Shown: positions 10,590 through 41,766 of the stretch, one piece after another
Position numbering within the stretch: the first letter of the stretch is position 1
Layout: the number at the start of each line of letters is the position of its first letter
DNA from: Oenococcus kitaharae DSM 17330
GTDB taxonomy: Bacteria > Bacillota > Bacilli > Lactobacillales > Lactobacillaceae
Direction: 5' to 3'
NCBI RefSeq assembly: GCF_000241055.1
Contig: NZ_CM001398.1
Coordinates: 717,190-781,189, forward strand
DNA length: 64,000 nt
The notes under the pieces: generated by a model
Seen by the model: only the letters and a program-made list of their open reading frames with translations
Databases searched by the model: none
Told to the model about the DNA's origin: nothing
Program-made: the position numbers and the translations under genes

Positions 10590-11459
10590 TCAAGCCCACT
10601 GCGACCATAATTTGACGATGGCTTGTGTGCCTAAATCGCCCAAACCTTTTTCTTCGGCCAATTTAGCGTAACTACGCTCGGCCAGAGCTGTTGCGGGCAA
10701 GTCCAAGTTCATTTTTTTAGCTTCGTCCAAGGCAATCCGCAGGTCTTTTAAAATGTGTTTGGCATAAAAACCAGGCTTGAAATCACCAGCCAAAATTCTC
10801 GGCGCGTAAGCTTCCATGGACCAATTATCTGCGCCTCCGGCTGACAGTGTATCCAAAGTCTCTTGCAAATCCAGCCCGGCCGTTTTGGCATAAGTCAGCC
10901 ACTCGGCCAGGCCCAGCATGGTCGAAGCAATCATGATCTGATTGGCCATTTTAGCGTGCTGACCTTTGCCGGCTTCACCAAAGTAGTTCGCTTTTTTGGA
11001 AACGATTTGTAATAAGGGTAGTGCTTTGTCATAAGCTGCTCGATCACCACCAACCATCGTTGTTAGCTTGCCGTCCCGCGCGCCGATATCACCGCCGGAA
11101 ACGGGCGCATCTAAGACGCCGATCTTTTTTTCTTTACCGGTCGCCGCAATTTTTGCAGCTAGCGTTGGTGTTGAAGTAGTCATATCAATGAGAATCTGTC
11201 CGGCCTTGGCTTGCTTAAAAATACCCTGATCCCCAAAATAGGTCTCTTCGACATCTTTCGGGTAGCCAACCATCGTAAAGACGACATCTTGTCCGATAGT
11301 TGCTTCCGCGGCTGAATCTGCCCAGACTGCGCCTTGATCTAAGACTTTTTGTGCATGTGCCTTTGTGCGATTAAAGACGGTCACAGTCTGACCAGCCCTT
11401 AAAAAATTATTGATAATGCCGGTGCCCATGACACCGGTTCCGATAAAAGCAATTTTCAT
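10590..11459 (-). CDS. 3-hydroxyisobutyrate dehydrogenase / tartronate semialdehyde reductase family
   Basis: Protein of 289 residues. The N-terminal Rossmann motif is FIGTGVMGTGI. The family substrate motif is DAPVSGGDIGARDGKL, and the catalytic Lys is in GKGQHAKMANQ (the G-x3-K-x2-N-x-N region). These features place it in the beta-hydroxyacid dehydrogenase family, which reduces or oxidises short hydroxyacids with NAD(P). The exact substrate is not determinable. The start is set by aggaggcaaac. It is divergent from the tryptophan importer and shares the intergenic region. Confidence 0.88.
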   Translation of the reverse strand: MKIAFIGTGVMGTGIINNFLRAGQTVTVFNRTKAHAQKVLDQGAVWADSAAEATIGQDVVFTMVGYPKDVEETYFGDQGIFKQAKAGQILIDMTTSTPTLAAKIAATGKEKKIGVLDAPVSGGDIGARDGKLTTMVGGDRAAYDKALPLLQIVSKKANYFGEAGKGQHAKMANQIMIASTMLGLAEWLTYAKTAGLDLQETLDTLSAGGADNWSMEAYAPRILAGDFKPGFYAKHILKDLRIALDEAKKMNLDLPATALAERSYAKLAEEKGLGDLGTQAIVKLWSQWA

Positions 11460-11471
11460 GTTTGCCTCCTG

Positions 11472-11535
11472 TTCACAAAATAAGTTTAAAACAGTTTTGT
11501 GACAACGTTGTTTTTTCGGCCAAACAGTGTATGAT
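11472..11535 (+). promoter_or_regulatory. Promoter region of the trpXYZ leader with inverted repeats
   Basis: TCACAAAA (11473-11480) and TTTTGTGA (11495-11502) form a perfect 8-bp inverted repeat with a 14-nt spacer. ACAACGTTGT (11502-11511) is a second perfect palindrome. A promoter TTGTTT (11508-11513), 16 nt, TATGAT (11530-11535) reads toward the leader peptide. An alternative -10 (taacat, 11540-11545) would put the transcript start on the peptide ATG. The first repeat may be an operator serving both divergent genes. Confidence 0.5.
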
Positions 11536-11549
11536 AAATAACATCAGTT

Positions 11550-11597
11550 ATGAAAATAGTCTTTAAGAACAATTCAGCATGGTGGTGGCTCGGTTAA
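11550..11597 (+). CDS. Tryptophan leader peptide of the trpXYZ attenuator
   Basis: The frame from ATG 11550 encodes MKIVFKNNSAWWWLG and then TAA (11595-11597). Three consecutive TGG codons occupy 11580-11588. Trp is the rarest residue, so a WWW run just ahead of mutually exclusive hairpins and a tryptophan-type transporter is the classic sign of a ribosome-stalling leader. The stop codon immediately precedes attenuator region 2 (11598-11603). A ribosome at the stop would hide region 2, while one stalled at Trp would leave it free. No SD is visible; the presumed transcript start is 0-8 nt before ATG. Confidence 0.85.
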   Translation: MKIVFKNNSAWWWLG

Positions 11598-11651
11598 GCG
11601 GGCTGCTTTTGTGTGATTTGTTCACTGAGGCCCGCCAATAGCGGGCTTTTT
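11598..11651 (+). promoter_or_regulatory. Transcription attenuator of trpXYZ (antiterminator/terminator pair)
   Basis: Region 2 GCGGGC (11598-11603) and region 4 GCGGGC (11641-11646) are identical, and both can pair with region 3 GCCCGC (11630-11635). Pairing 3:4 gives a six-pair terminator with a 5-nt loop and T run. Pairing 2:3 removes it; a small GTGA/TCAC hairpin (11613-11616 with 11622-11625) sits inside the antiterminator loop. The leader peptide ends one base before region 2, so ribosome position can select the fold: termination when Trp is ample, readthrough when Trp-tRNA is short. Confidence 0.8.
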
Positions 11652-11688
11652 CTTTTGTTCTCGTATCTTTAGATGAACAATTGGCCGG

Positions 11689-11710
11689 ACCCGCTCACTT
11701 GCGGGTTTTT
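11689..11710 (+). terminator. Second terminator in the trpXYZ leader
   Basis: ACCCGC (11689-11694) pairs with GCGGGT (11701-11706) around a 6-nt loop, followed by TTTT C TTTT. It lies 21 nt before the trpX ribosome site. Its 5' arm can also pair with regions 2 and 4 of the first attenuator. A TTGTTC/GAACAA hairpin (11655-11660 with 11675-11680) lies between the two terminators. Confidence 0.75.
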
Positions 11711-11743
11711 CTTTTGCTGATTGAATGATAAGGGAGAATGAAG

Positions 11744-12769
11744 ATGAAGAAAATTTATGGATTGATAGCAGTTGTGGTGGCTGTTTTGGCCTTTGCTTTT
11801 TATCGAGCATCTACGCCAAGCAAACCAAATGCAGCTAATAAGGCAAAACAGGTAGCCGGACCTAAAACGGTCAAGGTAGGCATTCTGCAGTTAGTGACAC
11901 ACCCAGCTTTGGACCAAATCCACCTCGGTGTCGTGGCCGGCCTGCGTTCACAAGGATACCGCGTCGGCAAGAATTTGAAGATTGATTACCAAAACGCGCA
12001 GGCTGATCAAGCAAATCTGCAGACGATGGCTTCAAAATTTGCCAATGAGAATGAAGATTTGATGGTTGGTATTGCAACACCAGCAGCTCAGTCATTGGCT
12101 AAAGCAGCTGCAGGCAAAACACCAGTTATCTTAGCCGGCATTACAGACCCGGTCGGCGGCGGTTTGATTAAATCTAATCAGCGTCCAGGTGCCAACATCA
12201 CAGGTACTTCTGGCGAATCACCGTTAAAATCGCATTTGAATCTGATTAAACAGATTGTACCCAAAGCCAAGACTTTAGGGATTATCTACACAACTTCTGA
12301 TCACGGCGGCACTTATAATGCTTTGAAGATGCAAAAGCTTGCTCAGCAAGCTGGTTATACAGTTAAGATGTACACGATTTCAACAACTAATGACATGCAG
12401 ACGATTGCCGGCCAAATGGTATCGCAAGTTGATGCTGTTTACGCACCACAGGATAACGGCGTCGCCAGTGCTATGAAGACACTTGTTAATGTGGCTAATG
12501 CCGCTAAAGTCCCAGTCTTTCCAGCCGCTGATACGATGGTTCATGACGGTGGGCTAGCAACATTAGCTGTCAGCCAATTCCAGTTAGGCAAAGTTTCCGG
12601 AATCATGGCTGCTAATGTTTTAAAGGGCAGAAAGCCAGCTAATTATCCGATTGAATTTATTCGCAAGGGCATCATGTCTGTGAACACGACTGAAGCAAAA
12701 CTGCTCGGTATCACATTGCCGGCATCAGTCTTAAAACAGGCCAAGGACAAAGGAGAAATTTTTAAATGA
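11744..12769 (+). CDS. trpX: ABC importer substrate-binding protein, TrpX type
   Basis: Protein of 341 residues. A single N-terminal hydrophobic segment (GLIAVVVAVLAFAF) without a lipobox Cys suggests membrane anchoring by an uncleaved or poorly cleaved signal. The rest is the ABC_sub_bind (PF04392) fold with VGILQLVTHPALDQIHLG at the mature start and ITDPVGGG in the middle. The TrpXYZ family has been linked to tryptophan uptake in Firmicutes by comparative genomics; the WWW leader peptide here supports that substrate independently. ATG 11744 is preferred over ATG 11738 because agggag ends only 1 nt before the latter. Confidence 0.85.
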   Translation: MKKIYGLIAVVVAVLAFAFYRASTPSKPNAANKAKQVAGPKTVKVGILQLVTHPALDQIHLGVVAGLRSQGYRVGKNLKIDYQNAQADQANLQTMASKFANENEDLMVGIATPAAQSLAKAAAGKTPVILAGITDPVGGGLIKSNQRPGANITGTSGESPLKSHLNLIKQIVPKAKTLGIIYTTSDHGGTYNALKMQKLAQQAGYTVKMYTISTTNDMQTIAGQMVSQVDAVYAPQDNGVASAMKTLVNVANAAKVPVFPAADTMVHDGGLATLAVSQFQLGKVSGIMAANVLKGRKPANYPIEFIRKGIMSVNTTEAKLLGITLPASVLKQAKDKGEIFK

Positions 12770-13662
12770 ATTTGACTGTTTCTACGATCGGGCAAGGCCT
12801 GCTCTGGTCGATTCTAGGTATCGCTTTGTTTTTAACTTTTAGAATTCTCAATTTCCCCGACATGACTGTCGAGGGTACTTTTCCTCTGGGAGCCGCAACA
12901 GCTGTTAGTCTGATCACACATGGTGTTGATCCATTTATTGCCAGCCTTGCGGCTTTTGTGACCGGTATGCTAGCCGGCGCAATTACTGCCTTCTTATATA
13001 CAAAAGGCAGAATTCCGATTTTACTAGCCGGTATTCTGGTCATGACGGCCTGCTTATCTGTGAATCTGCGTATCATGGGCTCAGCTAATATTTCTTTGAT
13101 TGGCCGGCAAACGATTTTCTCATCCCTTTCGCAGATGCCGCGCTATTTTGATGTGATTACGGTCGGCCTTGTCTCGGTTACCATTGTGACATTGTTGTTA
13201 ATCTATTTTTTGCAAAGTGATCTGGGACAAGCCTTCATTGTTACAGGCGACAATCCGACAATGGCGCGTTCGATCGGGATTAATACTGATCGAATGACGA
13301 TTTTAGGATTGATGGTTTCAAATGGTTTGGTCGCTCTCGGCGGTGCGGTTATCGCACAAAACAACGGCTATGCCGATATCAATATGGGTATCGGGATCAT
13401 CGTTGTAGCCTTGGCTTCCATCATTATCGGTGAAGTGGTCTTTGGCAATTTGACAATGAATCAGCGTCTGGTTGCGATTACTTTAGGTTCAATTATTTAT
13501 CGTTTTGTCCTGCTGATCGTCCTGCAGCTGGGTTTTTCGACAAACGATCTGAATTTACTGTCGTCGATTCTGTTAGCTATCTGCCTGATGCTGCCGCGTC
13601 TGAGCCATTTGCTTCATTTTGACAATTTAATTAAGCGAGGAGTTTCAAACAGCCATGACTAA
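12766..13662 (+). CDS. trpY: ABC importer permease, TrpY type
   Basis: Protein of 298 residues with about eight to nine membrane helices, of the COG4120 permease family found beside ABC_sub_bind proteins. It overlaps the end of trpX by four bases and follows aaaggagaaat. The conserved loop TGDNPTMARSIGINTDRM, which contacts the ATPase in related branched-chain-type permeases, is near residue 160. It should form the membrane channel for tryptophan with the TrpZ ATPase. Confidence 0.88.
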   Translation: MNLTVSTIGQGLLWSILGIALFLTFRILNFPDMTVEGTFPLGAATAVSLITHGVDPFIASLAAFVTGMLAGAITAFLYTKGRIPILLAGILVMTACLSVNLRIMGSANISLIGRQTIFSSLSQMPRYFDVITVGLVSVTIVTLLLIYFLQSDLGQAFIVTGDNPTMARSIGINTDRMTILGLMVSNGLVALGGAVIAQNNGYADINMGIGIIVVALASIIIGEVVFGNLTMNQRLVAITLGSIIYRFVLLIVLQLGFSTNDLNLLSSILLAICLMLPRLSHLLHFDNLIKRGVSNSHD

Positions 13663-14431
13663 TACGAATGCAATTTTGTCTTTAAAAAATGTCACAGTCA
13701 AGGTTCGTTCCGATAACGGCAGTGAGACAGAAATTTTGAAAAATTTCAATTTGGATGTGGCTGATGGTGATTTTATTACAGTCCTTGGTGCCAACGGTGC
13801 CGGGAAATCAACTTTCTTCAATGTGATTGCTGGTACTTTACCGGCTGATAGCGGCCAGATTTTTCATGCCGGCCAGGATATTACGTCTGTGTCAGCTGAG
13901 AAACGGACAGCTTTTCTCAGCCGCGTCTTTCAAGATCCGAAGATGGGAACCAGTCCGCGTATGACCGTCGCTGAAAATTTACTACTGGCTGCTAAGCGAG
14001 GTGAAAAACGCCGTTTACTGCCGCGTCACTTGAATTCAAAAATGGCAGATTTTGAACGTATCACAGCTGCAATGGGCAATAAACTAGATCAGCGTTTAAA
14101 TACAGCGACTGAAAATTTATCTGGTGGTCAGCGTCAAGCCTTGAGTTTTCTCATGGCGACCTACAAAAAGCCGGATATTTTACTATTAGATGAGCACACG
14201 GCTGCCTTGGATCCAAAGACCAGTGCCGAACTAATGCAGAAAACGGCCCAGCGGGTCAACGAGGATCATCTGACCTGCCTCATGATTACGCACCGCATGG
14301 ACGATGCTTTAAAATACGGCAACCGTCTGATTGTGATTGATAATGGTGCCGTTTCACATGATTTTAATCGTGATGAAAAGGCTGCTTTGACAAAAGATAA
14401 ACTCTTCTCGTTTTTCGATGCAGAGGCCTAA
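13655..14431 (+). CDS. trpZ: ABC importer ATP-binding protein, TrpZ type
   Basis: Protein of 258 residues. Walker A is GANGAGKST, the signature is LSGGQRQAL, Walker B is ILLLDEHTAALDPK (note EHT where most ABC proteins have EPT), and the H-loop is MITHRMDDA. It overlaps trpY by 8 nt with its own gcgaggag site. It powers the TrpXY complex. It is the last gene of the attenuated operon; no strong terminator was found before the next gene. Confidence 0.9.
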   Translation: MTNTNAILSLKNVTVKVRSDNGSETEILKNFNLDVADGDFITVLGANGAGKSTFFNVIAGTLPADSGQIFHAGQDITSVSAEKRTAFLSRVFQDPKMGTSPRMTVAENLLLAAKRGEKRRLLPRHLNSKMADFERITAAMGNKLDQRLNTATENLSGGQRQALSFLMATYKKPDILLLDEHTAALDPKTSAELMQKTAQRVNEDHLTCLMITHRMDDALKYGNRLIVIDNGAVSHDFNRDEKAALTKDKLFSFFDAEA

Positions 14432-40327: not shown

Positions 40328-40378
40328 ATGATGGCAATTACTTTGAATCGTTGGCAAAACTGGCGTAGCAGAAAGTAA
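40328..40378 (+). CDS. Tryptophan leader peptide of the trpB attenuator
   Basis: ATG 40328 (then ATG 40331) encodes MMAITLNRWQNWRSRK and TAA (40376-40378). Two TGG codons lie at 40352 and 40361 in a 16-residue peptide. aagaaagg (40313-40320) is a correctly spaced SD, so translation is well supported. It is followed by alternative hairpins and a strong terminator, then trpB. The layout and Trp-codon density mirror trpL leaders of other bacteria. Confidence 0.82.
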   Translation: MMAITLNRWQNWRSRK

Positions 40379-40387
40379 GTTTACTCT

Positions 40388-40498
40388 AAGCGTAGACTTG
40401 CTTTGATTTGTATTGAAGAGAGTCTATGCCGTCACGATTTCCTTTTGAATCGAATTCAGCCGCATAGCTAAGATGAATCAATCGCTATGCGGCTTTTT
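40388..40498 (+). promoter_or_regulatory. Transcription attenuator of trpB
   Basis: Four segments are visible. Region 1 GCGTAGACT (40390-40398) pairs with region 2 AGTCTATGC (40421-40429), nine pairs including one G-U. Region 2 CTATGC (40424-40429) can instead pair with GCATAG of region 3 (40462-40467). Region 3 AGCCGCATAGC (40458-40468) and region 4 GCTATGCGGCT (40484-40494) form an 11-bp terminator followed by TTTTT. A GCGTAG copy (40363-40368) overlaps the second Trp codon and could act as an alternative region 1. A competing ACTCT/AGAGT pairing (40383-40387 with 40419-40423) abuts region 2. How ribosome position chooses the fold is not settled. Confidence 0.8.
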
Positions 40499-40557
40499 GT
40501 ATCTAAATGGTCGTCCGTCTAGACTCCGTAAAAATAAAAATAATGAGGAATTAGACA

Positions 40558-41766
40558 ATGACAGAAGAAAATACAGCAGCACAAGTAAAAAGAACCGGCT
40601 ATTTTGGTGATTACGGCGGACAATATGTCCCTGAAGCCGTCAAAACAGCTTTGAATAAATTGGAAAAGGTTTATCTGCAATATAAAGATGATTCAGAATT
40701 CCGCACAGAGTTGGCTGGATATTTAAAGGACTATTCCGGCAGGGAAACGTCGCTCTATTACGCCGAATCACTGACCAAATATTTGGGCGGCGCAAAAGTC
40801 TACTTAAAACGCGAGGATTTAAACCATTTGGGTGCCCACAAGTTAAATAATGTTTTGGGACAAATTTTATTAGCACGGCGCATGGGCAAAAAGAGGGTCG
40901 TGGCCGAAACAGGGGCTGGCCAGCATGGTGTCGCTACAGCCGCGGCAGCTGCTAAATTTGGTATGTCCTGTGATATTTTTATGGGTGCCATGGATATGCA
41001 GCGGCAAAAATTGAATGTTTTCCGCATGGAAATGATGGGCGCAACGGTTCATTCTGTTTCAGCCGGTACAGCCACCTTAAAAAACGCAGTTGATGCAGCC
41101 TTAGGCTACTACGCTCAGCACCTAGACGATACTTTTTACGTCTTAGGTTCAGCAGTCGGCCCGCACCCTTATCCGACGATTGTCAAAGACTTCCAGAGTG
41201 TCATCAGCAAAGAAGCTCGTCGCCAGATTCTTGAAAAAGAAGGCCGCCTGCCCGATGCGATTATTGCCTGCATTGGCGGCGGATCAAATGCCATTGGTGC
41301 CTTTGCAGAATTTATTCCTGACAAAAATGTGCGTTTGATTGGTGCTGAGGCAGCCGGCAAAGGTGTTGATACGCCAGAAAACGCTGCCACGATGACTAAC
41401 GGCCGCCCTGGCATTGCTGATGGTATGTTTTCCTATCTTTTACAAGATGCACAAGGCGGCGTGCTGCCAGCTTATTCAATTTCTGCAGGTCTTGATTATC
41501 CAGGCGTTGGTCCTGAACATTCATTTTTGAAAGATACGCATCGCGCTGAATACTACGCAATCACGGATAAAGAAGCCGTTGACGCATTTCTATTGCTGTC
41601 GAAGCTGGAAGGCATTATTCCGGCCCTTGAGAGTTCACACGCTGTGGCCCAAGCTGTCAAGATGGTGCCAAAAATGTCTAAAGACCAGATTGTGATTATT
41701 AATCTGTCGGGACGAGGCGATAAAGATGTTGAACAAGTTGCCCACTATATCGGCCGGGACTTGTGA
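40558..41766 (+). CDS. trpB: Tryptophan synthase beta chain, no trpA alongside
   Basis: Protein of 402 residues, PLP enzyme joining indole and serine to give Trp. PLP-Lys is in [10 protein letters not shown] (near residue 90), the catalytic Glu in [11 protein letters not shown] (~112), the phosphate loop is GGGSNAIG (~240), and GRGDKD is at the end. [10 protein letters not shown] differs at two positions from the common NHxGAHKxNN forms but retains Lys. No other trp biosynthesis gene is adjacent, so the enzyme may use indole or depend on distant genes. It follows a Trp-codon leader and terminator. aatgagga is the SD. Confidence 0.95.

Follow-up and report, generated by a model that had tools for sequence, protein, structure and literature searches.

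The tryptophan importer operon trpXYZ in the analysed stretch of Oenococcus DNA (64 kb, hereafter the window) is preceded by a short open reading frame (ORF) with three consecutive Trp codons and by a chain of six pairing segments. From the sequence and from in silico folding, we interpret this leader with high confidence as the control element of trpXYZ, a transcription attenuator in which ribosomes sense the Trp-tRNA supply at the three Trp codons. Translation of the WWW peptide very probably sets whether transcription continues into the importer genes. Sequence and comparison establish the ORF, the pairing segments, the two terminators, their conservation, the absence of a T-box and the identity of trpX, while the role of the ribosome, the direction of the response and the coupling of terminator 2 are what we infer. 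The support for Trp attenuation is computational and comparative throughout. Ribosome-mediated attenuation is itself a known kind of control; distinctive in Oenococcus are the six chained segments, the tandem terminators and the lack of a Shine-Dalgarno sequence.

The leader ORF encodes MKIVFKNNSAWWWLG and is followed, on the base after its stop codon, by GCGGGC (11598-11603), then by GCCCGC (11630-11635) and a second GCGGGC (11641-11646) that runs into TTTTTC. This layout of three consecutive TGG codons, a stop and three complementary blocks, the last closing a terminator, had been described in the initial annotation; it is read directly from the sequence, and a terminator scan agrees with it. 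The motif TGGTGGTGG occurs once in 64 kb, against 0.17 occurrences expected, and the folding energy of the trpX leader is -69 kcal/mol (z = -5.3). No Shine-Dalgarno sequence stands ahead of the leader ATG in the Oenococcus trpX leaders, where initiation may be of the short-leader type; we assume that the ORF, which is conserved in frame across Oenococcus, is translated. The likely promoter, picked by eye, is a weak match that a consensus promoter scan did not list. Its -10 element lies 14 nt from the leader ATG, a spacing of 14-15 nt being found across the WWW leaders of the genus, and a TGTATRRT-like -10 is located at equal distance from the ATG in leaders L008 and L010. The gene behind the leader scores above the equivalog cut-off for TrpX, confirming its earlier identification as part of the importer, and its product is 97% identical to TrpX of O. 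kitaharae CRBO2176.

Table 1. Features of the trpX and trpB leaders and their genes in the window.
Feature	Position	Strand	Basis or remark
Likely promoter, TTGTTT (11508-11513), 16 nt, TATGAT (11530-11535)	11508..11535	+	By eye; weak match
Leader peptide ORF MKIVFKNNSAWWWLG	11550..11597	+	Direct reading; ATG 11550, stop TAA 11595-11597; orthologues MNDIQVNNQAWWWLV, MKQIRFNNQSWWWLV, MFKNTTTQSWWNS
Three Trp codons (TGG TGG TGG), putative sensor	11580..11588	+	Direct reading; smallest terminator advantage when these codons occupy the A site
Segment 1, GGTGGCTCG	11584..11592	+	Overlaps Trp/Leu codons; partner 2
Segment 2, GCGGGCTGCT	11598..11607	+	Directly after stop codon; partner 1 or 3
Segment 3, GAGGCCCGC	11627..11635	+	Partner 2 (antiterminator) or 4 (terminator)
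Segment 4, GCGGGCTTT	11641..11649	+	3:4 and T-run form terminator 1
Segment 5, GGACCCGC	11687..11694	+	Partner 4 or 6
Segment 6, GCGGGTTT	11701..11708	+	5:6 and T-run form terminator 2
trpX, tryptophan ABC transporter substrate-binding protein	11738..12769	+	NCBIfam NF041285 equivalog, 434 bits vs cut-off 390
trpY, permease	12766..13662	+	Pfam PF02653; operon position
trpZ, ATPase	13655..14431	+	Pfam PF00005; operon position
Second leader peptide MMAITLNRWQNWRSRK	40328..40378	+	Shine-Dalgarno AAGAAAGGAAAT
RF04312 match, hairpin and terminator	40389..40504	+	56.8 bits, E 1.6e-7; just under gathering score 59
trpB, tryptophan synthase beta	40558..41766	+	TIGR00263, 619 bits

Scanning for terminators revealed three hairpins with T-runs within 300 bases, against 0.5 expected, located at 11584-11607 (1:2), 11627-11649 (3:4) and 11687-11708 (5:6). 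The six segments can adopt two alternative states, an off state of 1:2, 3:4 and 5:6 and an on state of 2:3 and 4:5. The antiterminator and the terminator with its T-run are mutually exclusive, as in an attenuator. Two of these elements were absent from the initial annotation: terminator 2, which ends ~30 bases upstream of trpX, and the 1:2 pairing, which uses the Trp/Leu codons, the Leu codon after WWW (GGCTCG) being part of segment 1.

To place a ribosome in silico, each leader was folded after deletion of all bases as far as 12 nt from the A-site codon. In a codon-by-codon scan of five Oenococcus leaders, each had its smallest terminator advantage at Trp codons; in the window leader, the first, second and third Trp codons give 3.2, 3.1 and 1.8 kcal/mol, the stop codon gives 13.1 kcal/mol and the untranslated leader 9.6 kcal/mol. 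A ribosome parked at the stop makes 2:3 impossible in silico, and 3:4 is formed in 5/5 leaders. If the ribosome sits on the first Trp codon and segment 4 has yet to be transcribed, 2:3 has a probability of 0.82-1.0, compared with 0 at the stop. A ribosome on the stop codon is thus predicted to mask segment 2 and one on the sensor codons to leave it exposed, in line with the earlier suggestion that a ribosome at the stop hides this region and one stalled at Trp frees it. The untranslated leader is predicted by folding to terminate. Once segment 4 exists, terminator 1 prevails at equilibrium in the window leader even when the ribosome is stalled (P34 0.98); the mechanism therefore requires 2:3 to form before 3:4, as textbooks describe for E. 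coli trp, and the order of formation would be decisive. In leaders L008-L010, the 4:5 pairing is dominant at any ribosome position, and we put forward the coupling of terminator 2 to ribosome position as a proposal.

In the proposed mechanism, when Trp-tRNA is ample, a ribosome at the stop codon would cover segment 2, 3:4 would pair and transcription would end at terminator 1, with terminator 2 (5:6) as its backup. When Trp-tRNA is scarce, a ribosome stalled on TGG would leave segment 2 free to pair with segment 3, giving readthrough; segment 4, freed in turn, could hold segment 5 and disarm terminator 2. A leader without translation would form 1:2 and terminate.

The leader is present upstream of trpX in 6/6 Oenococcus genomes with trpX, with WWW in five and WW in the distant one, and the peptides of the genus are MKIVFKNNSAWWWLG, MNDIQVNNQAWWWLV, MKQIRFNNQSWWWLV or MFKNTTTQSWWNS. 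A seventh Oenococcus genome, 65% complete, gives no trpX match. The exact motif TGGTGGTGGCTCGNNTARRCGGGCTG, extending from the Trp codons through segment 2, is found once per genome in five near-complete Oenococcus genomes, with zero matches in the reversed control. In the distant leader (L011), the core GCGGGC/GCCCGC is replaced by TTACGGG/CCCGTAA in segments 2 to 5 together, and because these segments changed jointly, both alternative pairing sets are kept; segment 6 changed in part (TACGGAC). This covariation comes from few independent sequences, and the six segments were compared by hand, since a MAFFT alignment of five Oenococcus leaders misplaced L011. The expectation that peptide and pairing recur in relatives is borne out by each of the five further trpX-bearing Oenococcus genomes, in one of them with covarying sequence.

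More widely, TrpX homologues are present in 371 of 400 Lactobacillaceae genomes, and 118 upstream regions were compared (6 from Oenococcus and 112 from other Lactobacillales, Streptococcus left out). A strict filter, requiring a Shine-Dalgarno sequence, 10-26 codons and a Trp motif near the end, is passed by 107 of the 112 non-Oenococcus regions, loci that share genera and are not independent, against a mean of 3.0 and a maximum of 6 in dinucleotide shuffles of all 118. Two further regions with a weaker Shine-Dalgarno sequence give 109/112 with a Trp-bearing leader peptide; the other three, one of them at a contig edge, lack one. Ribosome-dependent control of Trp transport had been presented as a notable departure in this group, a view that does not stand, with Trp leaders before trpX in almost all Lactobacillales examined. 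Widening the search to the phylum added few matches.

The usual leaders end at the C terminus in LNNAWWRR, LNSSWQSR or WQNWRR. Codons before Trp vary synonymously (Leu, for example, is TTG, TTA, CTG or CTT) and codons after Trp are almost invariant as nucleotides (CAA AGC CGG). This is the pattern expected of a leader whose first part acts as peptide and whose second part acts as RNA as well. In a wider folding scan, 62/111 leaders have their minimum near the Trp codon (-1 to +2 codons), against 26 if uniform, an effect weaker than that in Oenococcus. In Lactobacillaceae leaders such as L013 and L014, the main-hairpin loop GGCAAAC is by eye able to pair with the second terminator on its 3' arm; this pairing, a possible antiterminator for terminator 2, has apparent covariation in L053 and L051.

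Many of these leaders adjoin RF04312, the trpB motif (SRC-39-1). Its authors, who placed it ahead of an uncharacterised ABC transporter and described covarying hairpins, rated it a strong riboswitch candidate but did not exclude an attenuator (PMC11109978). RF04312 matches 14/15 non-Streptococcus trpX upstream regions of one scanned set. The published model begins 3' of the leader ORF and so omits it, and a leader peptide lies just upstream in nearly every confident match inspected; three loci considered as members (L164, L192 and L193) look like chance matches. What RF04312 and the Oenococcus trpX leader have in common is a hairpin with a terminator, located ahead of trpB or of the same type of TrpX transporter, and a Trp leader just 5'. 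They differ in that RF04312 is filed as a riboswitch candidate with a model that lacks the leader ORF, and the Oenococcus trpX leader gives no match to its covariance model. Position, gene and peptide, rather than the RNA, suggest that the Oenococcus form descended from the common Lactobacillales form. At two loci (L152 and L156), a Trp leader with RF04312 has no frame of >70 aa within 1.5 kb downstream.

The window contains a second leader at 40328-40504, ahead of trpB, that the initial annotation did not mention and that is also found in O. kitaharae (L168); it comprises a leader peptide with a Shine-Dalgarno sequence and an RF04312 match just under the gathering score. The window trpB has no neighbouring trp genes, being preceded by a helicase/nuclease-like long ORF and followed by an alpha-galactosidase-like ORF. 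Two near-complete Oenococcus genomes give no trpB match, and the importer may therefore be the main Trp source there.

The sensor codons change with the gene. HHHH codons precede hisZ-hisG in the leader MIANNFVQVYFQFHHHHRFKGL of an RF04312-like RNA (L160), and one RF04312 match before a TrpX paralogue has an FYFSYFR leader. TrpX paralogues carry leaders ending in QLNN-[F/Y]-R (15/20 by the filter, against 0.15 in shuffles), which match RF02863 (Enterococcus sRNA 2410). All 30 RF02863 loci read (L194-L223) have F/Y leaders (..YYFSYFR or alike) before TrpX paralogues or aroE/aroF; RF02863 resembles the trpX loci in having a leader peptide but differs in its Phe/Tyr codons and in being filed by Rfam as a small RNA gene. 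The TrpX family cut-off of 390 provides a test independent of the leader codons: 12/12 scored binding proteins behind W leaders lie above it (434-476 bits) and 12/12 behind F/Y leaders lie under it (269-354 bits). Two TrpX paralogues in G032 (L185 and L186) have leaders of pure Tyr (YYYDYYG) and pure Phe (FFFDFFG), which suggests separate Tyr and Phe importers there. Outside the class, an RF04312-like RNA (L191) has a Phe-containing leader before a gene of the sodium:neurotransmitter symporter family.

RF04312 and RF02863 appear to be switches of one kind, in which the sensor amino acid is matched to the gene. We consider it likely that they form one modular attenuator superfamily of Lactobacillales and some other Firmicutes, in which Trp, Tyr, Phe or His codons are swapped per operon and L-N-x-x may assist stalling, the Oenococcus leader being a stripped-down six-segment form that lost its Shine-Dalgarno sequence. 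In the open-licence literature, we found no paper on a Trp leader peptide for trpXYZ in Lactobacillales and none explaining RF04312 or RF02863 as leader-peptide attenuators, and their reassignment appears to be new.

The L-N-x-x residues before the sensor codons, kept in W and F/Y leaders despite synonymous changes, hint that the peptide itself matters, as it would in TnaC-type nascent-chain arrest, where peptide and free Trp stall the ribosome and the response need not follow Trp-tRNA charging. We regard this as very improbable: the sensor codons follow the amino acid of the regulated gene, Trp codons in series are typical of charging sensors, and induction by excess Trp has the wrong sense for an importer. 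A metabolite riboswitch, in which the conserved RNA of RF04312, the related motif, would bind Trp or some other ligand while the small ORF would be incidental, is very improbable. In favour of this reading, RF04312 was published as a strong candidate with covarying hairpins (PMC11109978) and matches many related leaders. Against it, nearly all these structures follow an ORF that has a Shine-Dalgarno sequence, the leader codons switch with the downstream gene from W to F/Y to H, the pre-Trp codons vary synonymously, and the authors of the motif themselves left an attenuator possible (PMC11109978).

Attenuation through translated Trp codons is to be set against the T-box, which controls the trpXYZ operon of S. 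suis by experiment (PMC9382623). Upstream regions of trpX from what we take to be Streptococcus match RF00230 in 5/5 cases read, four of them above the gathering score. The S. suis system and the Oenococcus leader share the operon and, in the mechanism proposed here, the response to uncharged tRNA-Trp and transcription termination, whereas the T-box works by direct tRNA-RNA binding without a leader peptide (PMC9382623). That uncharged tRNA-Trp binds the window leader directly, with TGG as specifier, is hardly credible: RF00230 has no match in the window, against ~14 T-box matches in the host genome, all outside it, which rules out a T-box at the trpX locus, and the T-box core sequence was not found upstream of trpX at the non-Streptococcus loci checked (15 in one set). 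With T-boxes only in Streptococcus and Trp leaders almost everywhere else among the regions examined, the T-box assignment is therefore not transferable to the rest of the order; the general statement that TrpXYZ operons in Firmicutes are under T-box control holds for the Streptococcus regions and fails for Oenococcus and 109/112 other regions. One locus whose genus is taken as Streptococcus (L151, G461) has a Trp leader and RF04312 before trpX, not a T-box. The two strong terminators in tandem could simply serve a transcript from upstream, the short ORF having arisen by chance, but this explanation is extremely unlikely, as the upstream gene (10590-11459) is on the opposite strand and peptide and pairings are conserved across Oenococcus.

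Among 4227 Rfam families, the best for the trpX leader of the window is RF00513 (Trp_leader), at 22.6 bits under the gathering score of 41. The E. coli trpL attenuator that this family represents likewise has a short ORF, adjacent Trp codons, 1:2, 2:3 and 3:4 pairings and a 3:4 terminator. The Oenococcus leader differs from it in preceding an importer rather than biosynthesis genes, in its six segments and two terminators and in its lack of a Shine-Dalgarno sequence, with no sign of common descent between the two. Ribosome-mediated attenuators known in Firmicutes, those of ilv-leu in S. aureus and Listeria (PMC6123439) and of his genes (PMC2965389, PMC9413887), similarly combine a leader peptide bearing codons for the regulated amino acid with a terminator/antiterminator pair, but they respond to other amino acids and none acts on trpXYZ.

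Three solutions to one task thus surround orthologous genes: Streptococcus has a T-box, most Lactobacillales have multi-hairpin attenuators and Oenococcus has a minimal six-segment chain. The attenuator reading would turn RF04312, an orphan riboswitch candidate for which >900 members are reported, and RF02863, classed as small RNA, into a directly testable class of leader-peptide switches, and the search for a ligand of RF04312 may be misdirected. The leader codons would also offer a cheap predictor of the aromatic amino acid carried by each TrpX-like importer.
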